Shown in pieces: positions 47,934-57,390 of a stretch of DNA of 64,000 nucleotides (its first letter is position 1; every line of letters starts with the position of its first letter). The stretch lies in contig CALJOK010000044.1 of the NCBI GenBank assembly GCA_937981555.1, forward strand, positions 124,001 to 188,000, in the 5' to 3' direction. A model generated the notes under the pieces. The model did no database searches and was not told where the DNA came from. It was given only the letters and a program-made list of their open reading frames with translations. Both the position numbers and the translations under genes were made by a program. The DNA comes from an uncultured Saprospiraceae bacterium (lineage in GTDB: Bacteria; Bacteroidota; Bacteroidia; Chitinophagales; Saprospiraceae).

Positions 47934-49682
47934 ATGAACAAAAAATATTTTACTCTTAACTCTGAAGTCGTGAATTTGATCCACGATTTAAAGTTACAAT
48001 TCCCAGATAACAGTTTAAAAATTTCAGATGTCGTCGATGAAGAAGGACATCAATATATCGATATAGTGCAAGAAGGTGGCGGTGTACTTGGAATTGCTTT
48101 GCTTGGCTACACTTATGTTTTGGAAAAAATGGGTATCCGATTTTTGAATATTGGAGGAACTTCTGCAGGAGCAATCAATGCACTCTTGTTGGCAGCAAGT
48201 GGAAAACCTGAAGAAGCAAAAACGGAAAAAATCATTGAAATCATCGCCAAAAAAAATATTGCTGACTTCATGGATGGCGATGAAGATGCTTTGGAATTTA
48301 TCCAAACTATACTTTCCAAAGAACCAAGCAAGCTAGAATTATTGTATCATGGTGTTCAAGTGATTGATAATTTCTCGCAAGATTTAGGACTTAATTTAGG
48401 GGAGAGTTTTCTGAATTGGTTAACTGATGTTTTAAAAGATTTTGAAGTTCATGACACCGCCAAATTGGAAAAACGAATGAATGAACTTTCTCCAACGATC
48501 CAGTTTCGAAAAGATTCAAAAGATATTCACGCATTCGAAGGACGAAAGATTTCGGCGGAATTGGCGATCATTGCAGCTGAATTAGCAACCGAAACCAAAG
48601 TCATTTTTCCAAGAATGCGAAACCTCTTTTTTAAAAATATCGACGAACCGAATCCAGCAAAATATGTTCGAGCATCGATGTCGATTCCTCTTTTTTTTAA
48701 ACCTTATGAATTGACCGATTTACCTGCTGATGAAAATGCTATCATTCGTTGGAATCGAATTGGAAAACACCGAGGCGCAATTCCTGAAAAAGCGATTTTT
48801 GTAGATGGAGGAATTATGTCAAATTTTCCTATCGATATTTTTCATCTCAAAGGAAGCATTCCTTCTCGTCCAACTTTTGGTGTAAAACTAGGTTTGGAAA
48901 GAGTCAAAACTAACCGCATCAATAATGTTGGAGATTTGTTGTACTCCTGTTTTGATGCTGCTCGAAATTTGCGTGACTTTGAGTTCATTAAAGAAAATAT
49001 GGACTTCCAACGACTAGTTGCCTACATCGATATTCAAGATCAAAATTGGTTAGACTTTAATATTTCTGATGAAAAAAAATTAGAATTATTTATTGCGGGG
49101 GCAAAAGAAGCAAAAGATTTTTTACAAAAATTCGATTGGGAAGGTTACAAAAAAATTCGAAAAACCATAAAAAAAACAGACTACTCTCCAAAAGTCTTAG
49201 AAGGTTTACAAAAGTCTTTAACGAAAATAATTGAAGAAAAAAATCAACCAACGACAACCAATGATATCAACGCATTAAAAGATCGACTTTTTTATCTAGG
49301 CAAAACTAAATCTCTTCGAGTACTTTGGATTGATGATAACCCAAAATTAATTAAAAAAGAAAGATCCTTATTGCGGAAATTAGGTGTCAACTCAACCTTA
49401 GTTCCTTCTACTCAAGCTGCCAAAAATTTTATTAAAAATAATAAAGATGAAATTGACTTTATCATTTCAGATATAAGTCGGAATGATAGCTTTACTGAAG
49501 GCGTTGATTTCACCAAACAATTGTATGCCATCAATCCAAAATATAATCGCAAAGTAATTTTTTATATAACTGATTTAGATATTTCGAGAGGTGTTCCTGC
49601 CTATGCATTTGGGATTACTAATTCGGCGGTGGAATTGATCCAATTGGTGATAGATTTAGGGCAGCGAAAAGAAGGAGAGTGA
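47934..49682 (+). CDS. patatin-like phospholipase fused to a receiver-like domain
   Basis: 582 aa, soluble. The patatin domain (~40-340) has the oxyanion loop 'EGGGVLGIALLG' (48-58), nucleophile elbow 'GGTSAGAI' (Ser77) and dyad Asp in 'VDGGIMSNFP' (Asp291). After a helical linker, residues ~458-580 form a receiver-like domain: acidic pair in 'LRVLWIDDNP' (467-468), 'DFIISDISR' with a possible phospho-Asp513, and a C-terminal 'GITNSAVELIQLVIDL'. This kind of receiver is seen attached to TIR and other conflict effectors and often is not a true two-component output. The enzyme should hydrolyse phospholipids and may attack the cell's own membrane on a signal. No cyclase or CBASS gene is adjacent. 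Confidence 0.88.
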   Translation: MNKKYFTLNSEVVNLIHDLKLQFPDNSLKISDVVDEEGHQYIDIVQEGGGVLGIALLGYTYVLEKMGIRFLNIGGTSAGAINALLLAASGKPEEAKTEKIIEIIAKKNIADFMDGDEDALEFIQTILSKEPSKLELLYHGVQVIDNFSQDLGLNLGESFLNWLTDVLKDFEVHDTAKLEKRMNELSPTIQFRKDSKDIHAFEGRKISAELAIIAAELATETKVIFPRMRNLFFKNIDEPNPAKYVRASMSIPLFFKPYELTDLPADENAIIRWNRIGKHRGAIPEKAIFVDGGIMSNFPIDIFHLKGSIPSRPTFGVKLGLERVKTNRINNVGDLLYSCFDAARNLRDFEFIKENMDFQRLVAYIDIQDQNWLDFNISDEKKLELFIAGAKEAKDFLQKFDWEGYKKIRKTIKKTDYSPKVLEGLQKSLTKIIEEKNQPTTTNDINALKDRLFYLGKTKSLRVLWIDDNPKLIKKERSLLRKLGVNSTLVPSTQAAKNFIKNNKDEIDFIISDISRNDSFTEGVDFTKQLYAINPKYNRKVIFYITDLDISRGVPAYAFGITNSAVELIQLVIDLGQRKEGE

Positions 49683-49847: not shown

Positions 49848-51911
49848 TTAAGCCATTTCCAAAGTCGACTCTTCAAGTGACTCAGAGTTAGTTTTCGAGA
49901 TGTTATTTTCTAAATTTGACTTCGGTAAAGTAAAGGAAAAGCAAGCACCATTCCCTTTCTCAGATTTCACCCAAATTCGCCCACCATGGTCTTCCACAAT
50001 TTTTTTGCAAGTAGCTAATCCAATTCCAGATCCAGAGTACATTCCTCTATTATGCAATCTTTTGAAGACCACGAAGATATCTTTTTGATATTCAGCATCG
50101 ATTCCAATTCCTTTGTCTTGGATAGAGAATTGGAATTCATTACCTAAATCTTTAACACTAACGGTTATTAAATTCCCTTCTGGCTTTCCAAATTTTATAG
50201 CATTAGCAATTAAGTTCTGAAAAACCTGACTTAACTGAGTAGGTCGACATAGAACATTTGGAAGAGGATTAATTATTACATCGCATTTCTTTTCATCCAG
50301 TTGAATCTTCAAACTATTTTTCACTTGGTGAGCAATGTTTTCCAGATTGGATAATTCTCTTTCACTTTTATCAACACCTATTTTTGAATAATCTAATAAA
50401 CCATTTAATAAATCTCCCATCTGCTTAGTGCCATTGGTAATGAAAGAAGCATATTCAAAAATATTCTTTTTAGCATCATATTGTTTTAACTCCTTGATGA
50501 GTAATTTCGTAAATCCATTGATATTCCTGAGTGGTTCTTTCAAATCGTGAGAAATGATGTAAGCAAATTTTTCTAAATCTCGATTCGAGTCAGCTAATAT
50601 TTGATTTTGTCTTACAATCTCATCATTCTTTGCTTCCAATATTTCATTCTTTTCAAAAGCAGATTTATTTCTACTGTACATCAAAATCAATAATAAAAAT
50701 GAAATGATAATTGCTCCACAAGTAATTGACATCGTGGTATAATTATTCGCTTTAGTTACTTCTTTATCCTTGGTAAGTAAAGCAATTTCATTTTCTCTTT
50801 CGATTTTATGGATTTCAAAATCTTGTTTTAAACTCGACATCGTCTCCATCATTTCATTAGAAAATATAGAATCTTTTAATGAGACATATTTATCGGTGTA
50901 CTCTTTATATTTTGCAAATTCTTTTTGTTTATAATAAATCTCTGCGTACTTCTTAGTCGCACTTTTCACACTACTAGTTTGTCCTAACTCTTTAAAAATA
51001 TTATAACTTTCGTCAAGAGCTAATAAGGCATCATCTAACTTATTTTGTTTAAAATGAATATCTGACATTTGCTCCAACGAGTATGCTGTCAAAAGTTTAT
51101 TTCCAAGAATAAAACTCAATTCATAGGCTTGTTTAAGAAAAGATTCAGCCTCCTCAAATCTATTAAGAAGTCCTAAGATGTGCCCCGCATTAACCGATGC
51201 CCAAGCCAACTCCTCCTGATCTTCAATCTTCTTAGCTAGCCCAATACTTTCATTAATATATTTCAATGCTTTCTCGTAGTCTTTAAGGGAAGCCCAACTA
51301 TTACCTAGGGCTGTAATCCCTAAGATGGTCATTTTTACATCCTTCATTGACTTCGCAATGGTAATTCCTTTTTCATAGTATTTTAATGCTAATTCGCTTT
51401 GTCCTTGAGTTCCAAAGTTAGATCCAAGGTCATAATGCACATTCATCATCCCAGTAGAATCTGAAATATCAATGTAATATTTCAGAGCATCCATTTGATA
51501 TTTATATCCTTCAGAAAATTTATTTTTGAACACGAGTGTCATCCCAATAATCTGATTTACCTCCGCTCTCAATTTTAATTCCGAAGGTTTTATATTTGGT
51601 AAAACTTCTAGTAGTATAGAATAGGAATTTTGGATGTCACCATTTTTATATAGTGCAATTCCATAACCTATAGTAATATCAATAAAATGTTGGTTAGATA
51701 TATTTTGAGCATTTCCAAACTCATAAGCTGTTTTGAAGATGTTTACAGCTTTGTCAAATTCTTGATTCTTTTTTAAGAAATCTTGACCTAAGGTATTTTG
51801 TTCTTCCAACCATAAAATTGGAGTTTTCACACTATCCACTCCCATTCCATAAGAGTTCAATGCAAGCAGAGAAAAGAAAAACAAAAAGAATTTGAAAAGA
51901 AATAGTCTCAT
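49848..51911 (-). CDS. TPR-containing sensor histidine kinase
   Basis: 687 aa. Signal peptide (~1-20), then about seven TPR-like repeats in the periplasm (~60-330: 'ALKYYEKGITIAKSM', 'ALKYINESIGLAKKI', 'AESFLKQAYELSFIL'), one membrane helix (~390-410, 'TMSITCGAIIISFLLLILMY'), a coiled coil, the H-box 'ISHDLKEPLRNINGFTKLL' (His ~450) and HATPase motifs 'DKGIGIDAEYQKDIF', 'GSGIGLATCKKIVEDHGG'. TPRs outside the membrane could bind a peptide or protein ligand. Two small peptide ORFs lie upstream on the same strand. No response regulator gene is adjacent. Confidence 0.9.
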   Translation of the reverse strand: MRLFLFKFFLFFFSLLALNSYGMGVDSVKTPILWLEEQNTLGQDFLKKNQEFDKAVNIFKTAYEFGNAQNISNQHFIDITIGYGIALYKNGDIQNSYSILLEVLPNIKPSELKLRAEVNQIIGMTLVFKNKFSEGYKYQMDALKYYIDISDSTGMMNVHYDLGSNFGTQGQSELALKYYEKGITIAKSMKDVKMTILGITALGNSWASLKDYEKALKYINESIGLAKKIEDQEELAWASVNAGHILGLLNRFEEAESFLKQAYELSFILGNKLLTAYSLEQMSDIHFKQNKLDDALLALDESYNIFKELGQTSSVKSATKKYAEIYYKQKEFAKYKEYTDKYVSLKDSIFSNEMMETMSSLKQDFEIHKIERENEIALLTKDKEVTKANNYTTMSITCGAIIISFLLLILMYSRNKSAFEKNEILEAKNDEIVRQNQILADSNRDLEKFAYIISHDLKEPLRNINGFTKLLIKELKQYDAKKNIFEYASFITNGTKQMGDLLNGLLDYSKIGVDKSERELSNLENIAHQVKNSLKIQLDEKKCDVIINPLPNVLCRPTQLSQVFQNLIANAIKFGKPEGNLITVSVKDLGNEFQFSIQDKGIGIDAEYQKDIFVVFKRLHNRGMYSGSGIGLATCKKIVEDHGGRIWVKSEKGNGACFSFTLPKSNLENNISKTNSESLEESTLEMA

Positions 51912-51940
51912 AAATTTTTGAAATAATGTTAGGTATAGAA

Positions 51941-51973
51941 GCAGAGCTATTCAACAAAATCAAATAGCTCTGC
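51941..51973 (-). repeat. strong hairpin between the micro-ORF and the TPR kinase
   Basis: An 11-bp perfect inverted repeat GCAGAGCTATT / AATAGCTCTGC with an 11-base loop. On the minus strand it is followed by TTCTATAC, a weak U-tract. It could be a partial terminator that lets some transcripts read into the kinase gene. Confidence 0.55.
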
Positions 51974-51998
51974 ATTGGAATTTCTAATTCTAAATCCA

Positions 51999-52094
51999 TT
52001 AATTACAGGAACAAAACATTACCATCTCTTTTCCGCTAAGATTAGCATAAATGTGGTGTTGTATTGATTTCTCTATTTTATCTTTATTAATCAT
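51999..52094 (-). CDS. 31-aa micro-ORF ending in a Cys-rich tail
   Basis: The minus strand encodes a 31-aa peptide from the ATG at 52094: it begins MINKDKIEKSIQHHIY and ends EMVMFCSCN. It has charged N-terminal and Cys-containing C-terminal halves like a small precursor peptide, but lacks a Gly-Gly motif. It lies 138 bases downstream of the Gly-Gly leader peptide gene and 87 bases upstream of the TPR kinase. It could easily be a chance ORF; its support is position, length and composition only. Confidence 0.3.
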   Translation of the reverse strand: MINKDKIEKSIQHHIYANLSGKEMVMFCSCN

Positions 52095-52232
52095 CCTTTA
52101 TTTCAGCATATAAAAATAGGCGTCCAAGAGTAGATGTTGATAAAAATCAAATAGATTTTATTATCTCGATAATTATGTATTATAAAACTAGAAGGAAATA
52201 ATCTATTGCTAACATGAAATAGCAATGATCAT

Positions 52233-52370
52233 TTAATATTGAATCCATCTATTTCGAGTGCAGCAGAAATAAGCACCTCCTCCTTTAATTTTTGCACACT
52301 TATTGGCATCCATTACTTGATCAAGGTTAAAAGATAATGCTGAAATCTTTTTTGATTCTTTTTTACTCAT
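52233..52370 (-). CDS. Gly-Gly leader peptide (RiPP/bacteriocin-like precursor)
   Basis: 45 aa, too short for most gene finders. It starts with a charged Lys/Ser/Glu segment (MSKKESKKISALSFN), then a leader-like helix 'LDQVMDANKCAKIKGG', and after the Gly-Gly a short core 'GAYFCCTRNRWIQY' with two adjacent Cys and aromatic residues. Bacteroidota natural-product precursor families of the double-glycine type have this layout (K-rich start, '..K.I.KGG', short core). It would be exported and cut by a C39-type ABC transporter; the ABC exporter at 53230 lacks such a peptidase. An exact promoter element lies upstream, and a TPR histidine kinase follows on the same strand. No modification enzyme is adjacent. 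Confidence 0.7.
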   Translation of the reverse strand: MSKKESKKISALSFNLDQVMDANKCAKIKGGGAYFCCTRNRWIQY

Positions 52371-52477
52371 GGTTATGATTGTTTAAATGAAAAAATATTT
52401 GAATAGTTATTAAATTGCATAATTAGGTGGGAGGATAAACATGGGATGGGTTAGTACCCGAAATACAAAAATGATTC

Positions 52478-52485
52478 CAAAACTA
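52478..52485 (-). promoter_or_regulatory. -7 promoter element for the Gly-Gly peptide gene
   Basis: The minus strand reads TAGTTTTG, an exact TAnnTTTG match, with CTTG 19 bases upstream as a weak -33 box. The start site would be ~100 bases before the peptide ATG. Apart from this and the two peptide ORFs, the 51912-52614 region shows nothing else convincing. Confidence 0.45.
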
Positions 52486-52614
52486 AATTGATTGGTTAGG
52501 ACAGCAAGAAAGGTATAGTTATAAACAATATTTCGAAAAAATAATCGTGATTCAATTAGAGGCCAGAAGGGAGAGTAGTAAAGATGGGAATATTCAGTTT
52601 GTCATAAAAAAAGA

Positions 52615-52642
52615 AAAAGCACTCTGTTCTCAGAGCGCTTTT
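52615..52642 (-). terminator. terminator downstream of the DUF3276 gene
   Basis: A 12-bp stem with one mismatch (AAAAGCACTCTG / CAGAGCGCTTTT, loop TTCT) has an A-run on the left (U-tract on the minus strand), 33 bases after the stop at 52675. Confidence 0.85.
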
Positions 52643-52674
52643 CAAATAACCTATTTAAAATCAAATCACATTTC

Positions 52675-53127
52675 TTACCAAGAAATATCGTCTTCTGATT
52701 CAATCTCCTTCTCCTCTACTACTTCCTCTGACGATGTTTCAGTTGTTGCTGCTGTTGCAGTTTCAGTTGTTGTACCTTCTTCTTCTGGTTCAACCCAAGT
52801 ACCTGCTTCCATTGCAGCTCTTTTTTCTTCCCACTCAGCCTGTCTTCTGTCGAATTCTTCGTAATCATAATCAGGCATCAAATCAGTTTTGATATAATTA
52901 ATAGCCTCATCTAATCCACCTTGAAATCTGTTGAAGTCTTCTTTGTACAGAAAAATCTTGTGCCTCTCATATCCGTCACCATTGATTCTTCTGGTGCTTT
53001 CGGTGAGAGTTAAGTAATAATCATCACCTTTTGTTTGGCGCACATCAAAAAAATAAGTTCTTCGCTTACCAGCTCTTACTTTCTTGGAAAACACACTTTC
53101 GAACTTTTTTTGGTTTTCGTTATCCAC
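52675..53127 (-). CDS. DUF3276 / PUR-alpha-like nucleic-acid-binding protein
   Basis: 150 aa, cytoplasmic. Residues ~8-95 match DUF3276: 'VFSKKVRAGKRRTYFFDVRQ', 'DDYYLTLTESTRRINGDGYE', 'RHKIFLYKEDFNRFQGGLDE'. This is the bacterial PUR-repeat fold that binds single-stranded RNA/DNA. The tail (~110-150) is very acidic and Thr/Ala/Glu-rich, likely disordered. It is conserved across Bacteroidota, usually as a single gene. It has an exact -7 element (53179-53186) and its own terminator, so it is probably transcribed alone. Confidence 0.88.
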   Translation of the reverse strand: MDNENQKKFESVFSKKVRAGKRRTYFFDVRQTKGDDYYLTLTESTRRINGDGYERHKIFLYKEDFNRFQGGLDEAINYIKTDLMPDYDYEEFDRRQAEWEEKRAAMEAGTWVEPEEEGTTTETATAATTETSSEEVVEEKEIESEDDISW

Positions 53128-55185: not shown

Positions 55186-57390
55186 TCAGACAGCAATGTC
55201 TGCTAACAATTCTTTATCCTTCTCTACTCCTAAAGTCGAAAGAATCGTAAAATAAAAAGTAGTTCCTTTCCCTTCTTCACTTTCAAAATAAATATCTCCG
55301 CCGTGCTTCTCTACTATTTTTTTACAAATTGCTAAGCCCATTCCGGTACCTTCATATTTGTCTTTGGTGTGCAATTGTTTGTAAGGTTTGAAAATCTTTT
55401 CCCGATATTCATCAGAAATTCCGATTCCATTATCTTGAATAGAAAATTTCCAAAATCCATTTTCTGGAATACAATTAATATTAATTTCAGGAGTCTTGTC
55501 TGCTGTCATAAATTTCAAACTATTAGCAATTAAATTTTGGAAAACTTGTCGCACTTTTGTTTCGTCAACCATTATTTTTGCAGGTAAATTTGCCACCTTT
55601 ATTTTTGCATTTTTTTCATTGATGGAAAAATCTAAATTACCCAAAACTTCTTTCACTAAATGATTCGCATCGTGAGCCGTTAAGTTCATTTGCAACGAAT
55701 TGACTTGCGAATAAGTCATCAAGTCATCCACCAAGTTCCACATTAATTTAGCGGCATTGCTAATCATATCAAGATATTCCAATTCATTCTCATTCAATTT
55801 ATCCTTTGCCCGTCGCTTTAATAAACTAGAAAAACTTCCAACTGTTCGCAATGGAGATTTTAAATCATGTGATGCAATATGAGCAAATTGTTCTAGTTGA
55901 ATATTAGATTCAATATATTTTTCGAGCATCTTATTTTTCTTTTCCAATTCGCCCTCTGCCATTCTTTTTGCTTTGAAATTTTTATACATGACAAATGCAG
56001 CTAGCCCTAAAACTAAAAAACCAACAATAAGAAATATTGAAATTAATCGTTGAAAATCTAATTTTGCCTCCCAAGATAATTTGTCTTTTTCCTGTTGAAT
56101 AATTTGAGCTCGTTTTTGTTTTTCCAACTGGTATTCAAAATCTTTTGACAAAGGAATTTTCATTCTGCTTTCATTGAAAAGACTGTCTCGATAAACCTTG
56201 TTAAGTTCTAAAAAATCAAGACTTTTCTCAAATTGATTGATAGCCTTATAGTTTGAATATAAAATTTTAGAAGCATCAGAGAGTACAACTAGATGATTAT
56301 TTTTAACCGCTTCTTCATAAGCAATCTTAGCCAGTTGAATACTTTTTTTATATTCCTTTTTTCGAAGATTCATTTCAGCTGCCAACAAATTAGCACTCAT
56401 TATTTCCGCTTTATTCCTATTCATCGAAGCGGACTGTTCGGCCATTTTATTGTTTTGCTCAGCGAGTTCATAATTTCCTAAATTGATATGACAAGCGGTA
56501 ATATTATTATAAATTACTGGAAGCGGATGAACGAAACCAGTATTCTTTGCATCCCCAAGAGCCTTATATAATATTTGAATAGCTTGGTCATAATTCTCTT
56601 CATCTAAGTACGTTGAACCAATATTTAGATTGACATTTATTATTTGCAAACTATCTTTATCTATTTGATATGATTGGCTGGCTTTCTCATAATGTTCATA
56701 TGCTTTTTTATAATTTTGGTTTTCCTTATAGATATTTCCAATATTATTATTAGCCATTCCGATATAACGATGAAGGTTGAGTTCCTCATAAATTTTCAAC
56801 GCATTGTAATAATATTGAATTCCTTGAGCGTATCGAAATTGTTCGATATAAACATTTCCAAGATTCAAATTGCAATGTGCAAAACCAGTTTTGTAATTAG
56901 CTTTATCGTAAGCCTCGATTCCTTTTTGATAAAAATGTTCGGCTTCATCGAAATTATTTTGATGTAATTGAATCGTACCTAAATCCTTAAAACAATCTCC
57001 AAATTCTTTGTAGTTTTTATTTTTAGAAAAATACTCTTTAGCTTGGTTGAGGTAAGAAGTTGATTTTTCAAAATCAGTAATTAGCAAATGAGCTCGTCCC
57101 ATTAAATACAAACTCTTAGCTTTTAGTTTTGGAAAATCTTCAATTCTAGAAGAATTCAAATTTTCACTTAAATGTCCAATTGATTTATTGACATTATATT
57201 TGAAATTGTACTCTGCTAAATTATTTCTAGTTCTAATTCTTTGTTCTTCAGAAATATCAGATTCTAGCACAGTTTCTAAACTATCTGATTCCGATGTGTA
57301 AAAAGCAGTCAAATTTGTATTGATAGAAATAATAAAAAACAGGAAAAGTATAGAGTGATAAGTCACTTTCATAAAAATTGAATTATTCAC
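55186..57390 (-). CDS. TPR-containing sensor histidine kinase (second copy type)
   Basis: 734 aa; a start six codons later (57372, MKVTYHSILFLFFIISIN) would give a cleaner signal peptide. About eight TPR-like units follow (~85-400: 'AEHFYQKGIEAYDKANY', 'GIQYYYNALKIYEELNL', 'AYEHYEKASQSYQID'), then a membrane helix (~455-475), a coiled coil, the H-box 'ASHDLKSPLRTVGSFSSLL' (His ~515) and HATPase motifs 'DNGIGISDEYREKIF', 'GTGMGLAICKKIVEKHGG'. The architecture is like the kinase at 49848 but the sequence is diverged. The signal, partner and outputs are unknown. It is a single gene with its own terminator. Confidence 0.9.
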   Translation of the reverse strand: MNNSIFMKVTYHSILFLFFIISINTNLTAFYTSESDSLETVLESDISEEQRIRTRNNLAEYNFKYNVNKSIGHLSENLNSSRIEDFPKLKAKSLYLMGRAHLLITDFEKSTSYLNQAKEYFSKNKNYKEFGDCFKDLGTIQLHQNNFDEAEHFYQKGIEAYDKANYKTGFAHCNLNLGNVYIEQFRYAQGIQYYYNALKIYEELNLHRYIGMANNNIGNIYKENQNYKKAYEHYEKASQSYQIDKDSLQIINVNLNIGSTYLDEENYDQAIQILYKALGDAKNTGFVHPLPVIYNNITACHINLGNYELAEQNNKMAEQSASMNRNKAEIMSANLLAAEMNLRKKEYKKSIQLAKIAYEEAVKNNHLVVLSDASKILYSNYKAINQFEKSLDFLELNKVYRDSLFNESRMKIPLSKDFEYQLEKQKRAQIIQQEKDKLSWEAKLDFQRLISIFLIVGFLVLGLAAFVMYKNFKAKRMAEGELEKKNKMLEKYIESNIQLEQFAHIASHDLKSPLRTVGSFSSLLKRRAKDKLNENELEYLDMISNAAKLMWNLVDDLMTYSQVNSLQMNLTAHDANHLVKEVLGNLDFSINEKNAKIKVANLPAKIMVDETKVRQVFQNLIANSLKFMTADKTPEININCIPENGFWKFSIQDNGIGISDEYREKIFKPYKQLHTKDKYEGTGMGLAICKKIVEKHGGDIYFESEEGKGTTFYFTILSTLGVEKDKELLADIAV

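Follow-up and report, generated by a model that had tools for sequence, protein, structure and literature searches.

A double-glycine-leader peptide gene and an adjoining TPR histidine kinase form a candidate peptide-signalling pair in Saprospiraceae

Introduction

What does a histidine kinase sense when its sensor is an array of tetratricopeptide repeats (TPRs) and a small gene for a double-glycine (GG)-leader peptide stands directly in front of it? The question is raised by a 64,000-nucleotide (nt) stretch from an uncultured Saprospiraceae bacterium (GCA_937981555.1, contig CALJOK010000044.1, positions 124,001 to 188,000; hereafter the window), taken from a draft genome of 7,254,626 bases. 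An initial reading of the letters alone (the sequence-only reading) had proposed a peptide-signalling unit here. Comparison with related genomes indicates that a sigma-54-like element is followed at this locus by the conserved gene of a GG-leader peptide, a conserved hairpin and then the gene of a TPR histidine kinase. We suggest, with a probability of about 60%, that this is a two-gene peptide-signalling module resembling ComC/ComD, whose RRNPP-like sensor would lie on the outer side of the membrane; that the peptide is expressed, exported, cleaved and bound is inferred. Genomes (G), contigs (C) and loci (L) are cited by our labels where they need to be told apart.

Results

The peptide gene and the kinase gene belong together

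The 45-residue open reading frame (ORF) at 52233–52370 on the minus strand is present as first described, with a leader ending in KIKGG and a Cys-Cys core, GAYFCCTRNRWIQY, and is single-copy in its own genome. Among 199 family genomes including its own, homologues occur in five others (E 3.7e-13 to 9.1e-9), all remaining matches having E ≥ 0.03; a scan of species genomes gave six peptide loci, one of them new (L070, on a contig of a metagenome-assembled genome, MAG). The named peptide-bearing records are uncultured Saprospiraceae MAGs. The comparison that the sequence-only reading had called for, whether homologues lie upstream of orthologous kinases, came out in its favour: in 7/7 loci the two genes are directly adjacent on the same strand while their neighbours change. 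Flanking the pair are a DUF-like gene and an ABC transporter in the window (named by eye), a peptidase in G168, an ABC permease in G066 and L070, and yet others in G186 and in G068/G161 (by eye). All seven peptides share the motifs C-x2-IKGG and Y-[FYW]-CC-x-RN-x-W, the latter within a conserved core, the part after GG comprising 12–15 residues. In the closest pair, G068–G161, nonsynonymous divergence of the peptide gene (dN) is 0.044 and synonymous divergence (dS) 2.48; as dS is near saturation, just the direction of the difference counts. Because an orthologous kinase adjoins in 7/7 loci, dN is far below dS and the hairpin is kept, the linkage goes beyond chance, and on these comparisons both the peptide and the kinase are genuine and form a pair. 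On the minus strand of the window, the features follow one another in this order:

52675–53127: gene preceding the terminator-like site
52614–52643, minus strand: terminator-like site, 13-pair stem with a T-rich tail (one found against a shuffle mean of 0.1)
52464–52481, minus strand: sigma-54-like element TTTGGAATCATTTTTGTA (GG-N10-GT; GG-N10-GC in relatives), from spacing and comparison
52233–52370, minus strand: 45-residue GG-leader peptide with the predicted mature core given above, from the ORF and its homologues
51999–52094, minus strand: 31-residue ORF within some 250 nt of additional DNA that only the window has
51941–51973, minus strand: conserved hairpin, stem GAGCTA/TAGCTC, between peptide and kinase, not followed by a T-run in the window
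49848–51911, minus strand: 687-residue histidine kinase with a signal-like helix, an 8-TPR sensor (about residues 29–349), a membrane helix, HisKA and HATPase_c

The terminator-like site marks the upstream border of the peptide–kinase unit.

The peptide has no NCBIfam or Pfam match at E 10 and, lacking an NCBIfam match, falls outside TIGR04149, a family of precursors of ribosomally synthesised and post-translationally modified peptides (RiPPs). Among its weaker matches, 16/20 loci examined hold no GG ORF near the match, and those at L088 and L097 look spurious. L082 and L078 look like real GG peptides, with no large same-strand ORF in the fetched stretch; L078 (G239:C173, about 200 kb) carries two adjoining GG-leader peptides with YPPPF cores, the fetched stretch there being 3 kb.

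The predicted sensor is a TPR superhelix

The TPR histidine kinase of the sequence-only reading was borne out, with a signal-like helix at the N-terminus ahead of TPR, HisKA and HATPase_c regions. Among the matches listed from 198 family genomes, orthologues in the five other peptide-bearing genomes are 62–66% identical, the next-best kinase 34%. Eight TPRs are predicted to wind the sensor into a superhelix. Among bacterial structures its fold is matched best by Rap and NprR, two pheromone receptors; these matches came from a second look, the top 50 listed by Foldseek against the PDB being kinase parts and LGN/Pins only. Residues on the sensor's inner face are more often conserved than the comparison residues (40/138 vs 23/136, p 0.02), a weak difference, since one of three comparison groups gave the same odds without significance (10 vs 5) and the other two no effect. 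The likeness to RRNPP receptors suggested at the outset holds for the predicted fold of the sensor but not for its location, which here would be outside the cytoplasm.

A conserved hairpin separates the two genes

The hairpin, also seen in the sequence-only reading, is kept with its GAGCTA/TAGCTC stem in 7/7 loci, with compensatory changes on both sides at 4/11 pairs. T-rich stretches follow it in several relatives, not in the window, where a terminator scan did not call it a terminator. From peptide stop to kinase ATG the distance is 68–72 nt in 5/6 relatives, 167 nt in G186 and 321 nt in the window. A separate kinase promoter would have little room in the 68–72 nt gaps, which are mostly hairpin; the simplest account is that transcripts from the peptide promoter read through into the kinase gene. 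Because the hairpin is conserved, it is plausible that it sets the ratio of peptide to kinase.

The 31-residue ORF does exist, but its proposed place in the unit was not sustained: the gaps of the six relatives hold no such ORF, and the surrounding 250 nt or so occur in the window only. Nor does it qualify as a second or decayed peptide, its similarity to four of the seven peptides not being significant (shuffle fractions 0.19–0.71).

GG-leader ORFs precede some other TPR kinases

How general the pairing is was asked of 96 TPR kinases, a GG-type leader on a small ORF being sought within 600 nt upstream. These kinases are among the matches listed by a search that scored five candidates per genome; L033, L035 and L040 were added from a separate search, the L033 peptide being known when it was added. 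Contig-end rows (G186:C814, G196:C618, G108:C452 and G074:C145) and rows with a match beginning after query residue 255 were left out, and L150, L117, L118 and L176 have less than 600 nt of upstream DNA. Many of the genomes, which are drafts, are incomplete, and the detector is a regular expression that misses GA/GS leaders and peptides encoded elsewhere.

A GG-leader ORF was found upstream of 27/96 kinases (19 by a stricter motif), six of which are the orthologues described above. For the other TPR kinases the count is 21/90, against 2/130 control ORFs (p 1.7e-7); these controls are 137 ORFs minus seven peptide-bearing TPR kinases and still include some further TPR kinases and perhaps shadow ORFs. 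In another control, taken at these same loci, the count was 3/44 (p 0.03), two of the three being GG peptides near TPR kinases, and further controls gave 3/96 on the reverse strand and 47/1920 in shuffles. The residue before GG is K, R or N in 27/27 detected ORFs. The 21 non-orthologue cores comprise eight of a DPPPW type with acidic tails, four CPPP, two GNPPDWD tandem repeats, two P[IM]RP and five others. The tandem repeats (L123 and L129; GNPPDWD-x-H or similar) may represent a short peptide in several copies per precursor. At L034, L038 and L171 more than one GG-leader ORF, with CPP or CPPP cores, lies near one TPR kinase; L038 is labelled "none" in the survey, though its GG peptide sits further upstream.

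In a tree built from 53 kinases, one change (support 100/100) accounts for the CC type and likewise one (82/68) for the DPPPW type, which spans six genera, so that each is confined to one kinase group; the pair of P[IM]RP kinases branches as the sister of the CC group (100/100). For the CPPP type, with three changes, clustering is not clear (44/500 shuffles). Over all core labels there are nine changes against a shuffled mean of 22.9 (0/200 as low). Six of 58 loci, in which the filter found no protein, are absent from the tree (L118, L034, L123, L129, L033 and L270), and since L123 and L129 are among them, the tandem-repeat cores are not on it; rows L116 and L252 are shortened, beginning at the first ATG. 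A class-level kinase search gave a GG ORF upstream in 0/25 loci examined (of 28 new), most of these kinases having matched in the kinase part alone and several having little upstream DNA.

A sigma-54-like element stands before the peptide gene

The TAnnTTTG promoter of the sequence-only reading did not hold up: TAGTTTTG is present at 52478–52485, but its TA is not kept by relatives, which instead keep the overlapping GG-N10-GC element. The latter lies upstream of the peptide gene in 5/7 loci, the window having GT and G168 GA in place of the final GC. By a simple promoter score, 5/7 regions beat their shuffles (0–2/300 as good). Within 600 nt upstream of the 96 TPR kinases, TGGAAY-N5-TTGC occurs 14 times, whereas each other spacing tested gave 0 or 1 and the reverse strand 0; the N5 spacing is that of sigma-54 sites. 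Three of the 14 precede CC peptides, one the L139 peptide and ten kinases without a detected peptide (L035, L036, L041, L120, L124, L125, L137, L138, L141 and L146), the distance to the start codon in these ten loci being 63–110 nt. The spacing before the 96 kinases and the comparison suggest a possible sigma-54-like promoter upstream of the peptide, though the preference for this spacing does not extend to the genome as a whole.

Candidate export and regulatory components are encoded elsewhere

The window's own genome holds three C39 matches, none of them on the window's contig. Two are full-length ATP-binding cassette (ABC) transporters, and one adjoins an ORF with an HlyD match. C39 matches were found in 5/5 relatives, in G161 (71% complete) as a fragment only. 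RpoN and NtrC-type activators are also present in the own genome, and a receiver match was seen in 5/6 activators examined, covering the domain just partly in one of them. Reading by eye found no separate ORF for a response regulator next to the kinase, either in the window or at L046–L050.

Neighbouring genes

Convergent with the kinase is a patatin-like phospholipase gene (47934–49682, plus strand; Pfam E 3.3e-27); towards the C-terminus of its product, a stretch resembles a receiver domain (Response_reg, 23.4 bits; cut-off 30.2). In the relatives' loci, whose ORFs were read by eye, no patatin gene was noticed next to the kinase. A second TPR histidine kinase (55186–57390, minus strand) lies 3 kb upstream. 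The start of a divergent gene lies 158 bases ahead of it, and on this kinase's own strand no GG-leader ORF was seen in that place.

Discussion

How might such a locus work? An unlinked C39-peptidase ABC exporter would cut after KGG and export the core (12–15 residues, CC-x-RN-x-W), which would bind the inner face of the 8-TPR domain outside the cytoplasm. Phosphorylation of an unlinked regulator by the kinase would follow, this regulator plausibly being an NtrC-type activator that feeds back on the sigma-54 promoter, and the hairpin would pass part of the transcripts into the kinase gene, yielding more peptide than receptor. The pair in the window would be one among several in the family with differing peptide types.

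Several observations weigh against this proposal. The promoter sites of the window and G168 are not significant alone, 59/300 and 60/300 shuffles being as good. Allowing at most one mismatch, the own genome has 55 sites at the sigma-54 spacing against 21 for the reversed control, and the motif lengthened by one base (TTTGGAAY-N5-TTTGCW) has 81 against 17, the sigma-54 spacing not being the richer of the two genome-wide. In addition, no GG ORF was detected for 69/96 TPR kinases, and the kinase loci L038 and L171 contain GG ORFs elsewhere too. The last two points would suit a linkage that is incidental, the kinase sensing something else and GG ORFs being simply common nearby, but we consider this very improbable given the 7/7 linkage despite changing neighbours, the 21/90 vs 2/130 enrichment and the tracking of kinase group by peptide type for CC and DPPPW.

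Could the peptide be output, not ligand? Bacteriocins and RiPPs too carry GG leaders, the leaders of some paralogous peptides match TIGR04149, whose members share the GG-type leader, or ComC models below cut-off, and histidine kinase and TPR genes have been reported near putative Bacteroidales RiPP precursors (PMC10352776, in part). The kinase might then control production of a secreted effector or sense its effects. However, the ORFs read next to the peptide in the loci included no recognisable gene for modification or immunity (no family search being made), the core is highly conserved across genera, and different kinase groups go with different cores; we regard an effector as unlikely. The tight linkage and conserved hairpin would also fit a small protein that is not exported and, in cis, regulates or stabilises the kinase in the cell or periplasm, or whose translation controls read-through into the kinase gene. 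This we find quite improbable, since a KGG, RGG or NGG leader end is found in 27/27 detected ORFs and is kept while cores vary widely among kinase groups, and since C39 exporters are present.

A signalling pair, the reading we prefer, has parallels in known systems. As in ComC/ComD–ComE and BlpC/BlpH–BlpR, a GG-leader peptide gene stands beside a histidine kinase, with a C39 exporter in the cell. ComD is a polytopic membrane sensor; here, in contrast, a TPR domain outside the cytoplasm forms the sensor, no linked gene for a response regulator was recognised, the promoter looks sigma-54-like, the phylum is Gram-negative and the core is unlike the competence-stimulating peptide. Streptococcal peptide and receptor are likewise encoded in one locus, while the RRNPP receptors (Rap, NprR, PlcR, PrgX) are cytoplasmic regulators that bind re-imported peptides (PMC7595303, in part). 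The predicted superhelix resembles that of Rap and NprR, but behind its TPRs come a membrane helix and kinase domains. As neither a linked response regulator nor a cytoplasmic role was found, we file the pair neither as a ComCD type nor as an RRNPP member. A screen by Dirix et al. in 2004 reportedly covered GG peptides in Gram-negative bacteria and could hold related peptides.

In the open-access literature searched, most subscription journals and preprints lying outside it, no description of GG peptide–TPR kinase pairs in Bacteroidota was found, and the accessible parts of PMC10945367 and PMC5524665 contain nothing on them. Closest among the published remarks seen are the kinase and TPR genes near RiPP precursors mentioned above and a suggestion on the kinase FimS of Porphyromonas gingivalis, whose periplasmic sensor has eight predicted TPRs and may bind a polypeptide through these repeats (PMC11053733, in part); against HK_Porph_FimS (NF053520) the window kinase scores 141.3 bits, chiefly in the kinase part and far below the cut-off of 600.

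Our results point to a peptide-signalling system of a form for which we found no earlier open-access description in Saprospiraceae. Tentatively, this family, and perhaps Bacteroidota more widely, may possess diversified cognate pairs, in which a GG pheromone is encoded ahead of a TPR kinase with an outward-facing, RRNPP-like sensor and peptide types (CC-RN-W, DPPPW, PxRP and others) follow kinase groups in the manner of pherotypes, and TPR kinases of unknown signal, FimS included, might be peptide receptors. For FimS, a TPR kinase of the same phylum, the signal is stated to be unknown (PMC11053733, in part). The locus provides a concrete 14-residue candidate ligand for a concrete receptor, and its paralogues provide further candidates, so that what TPR sensors sense becomes directly testable.
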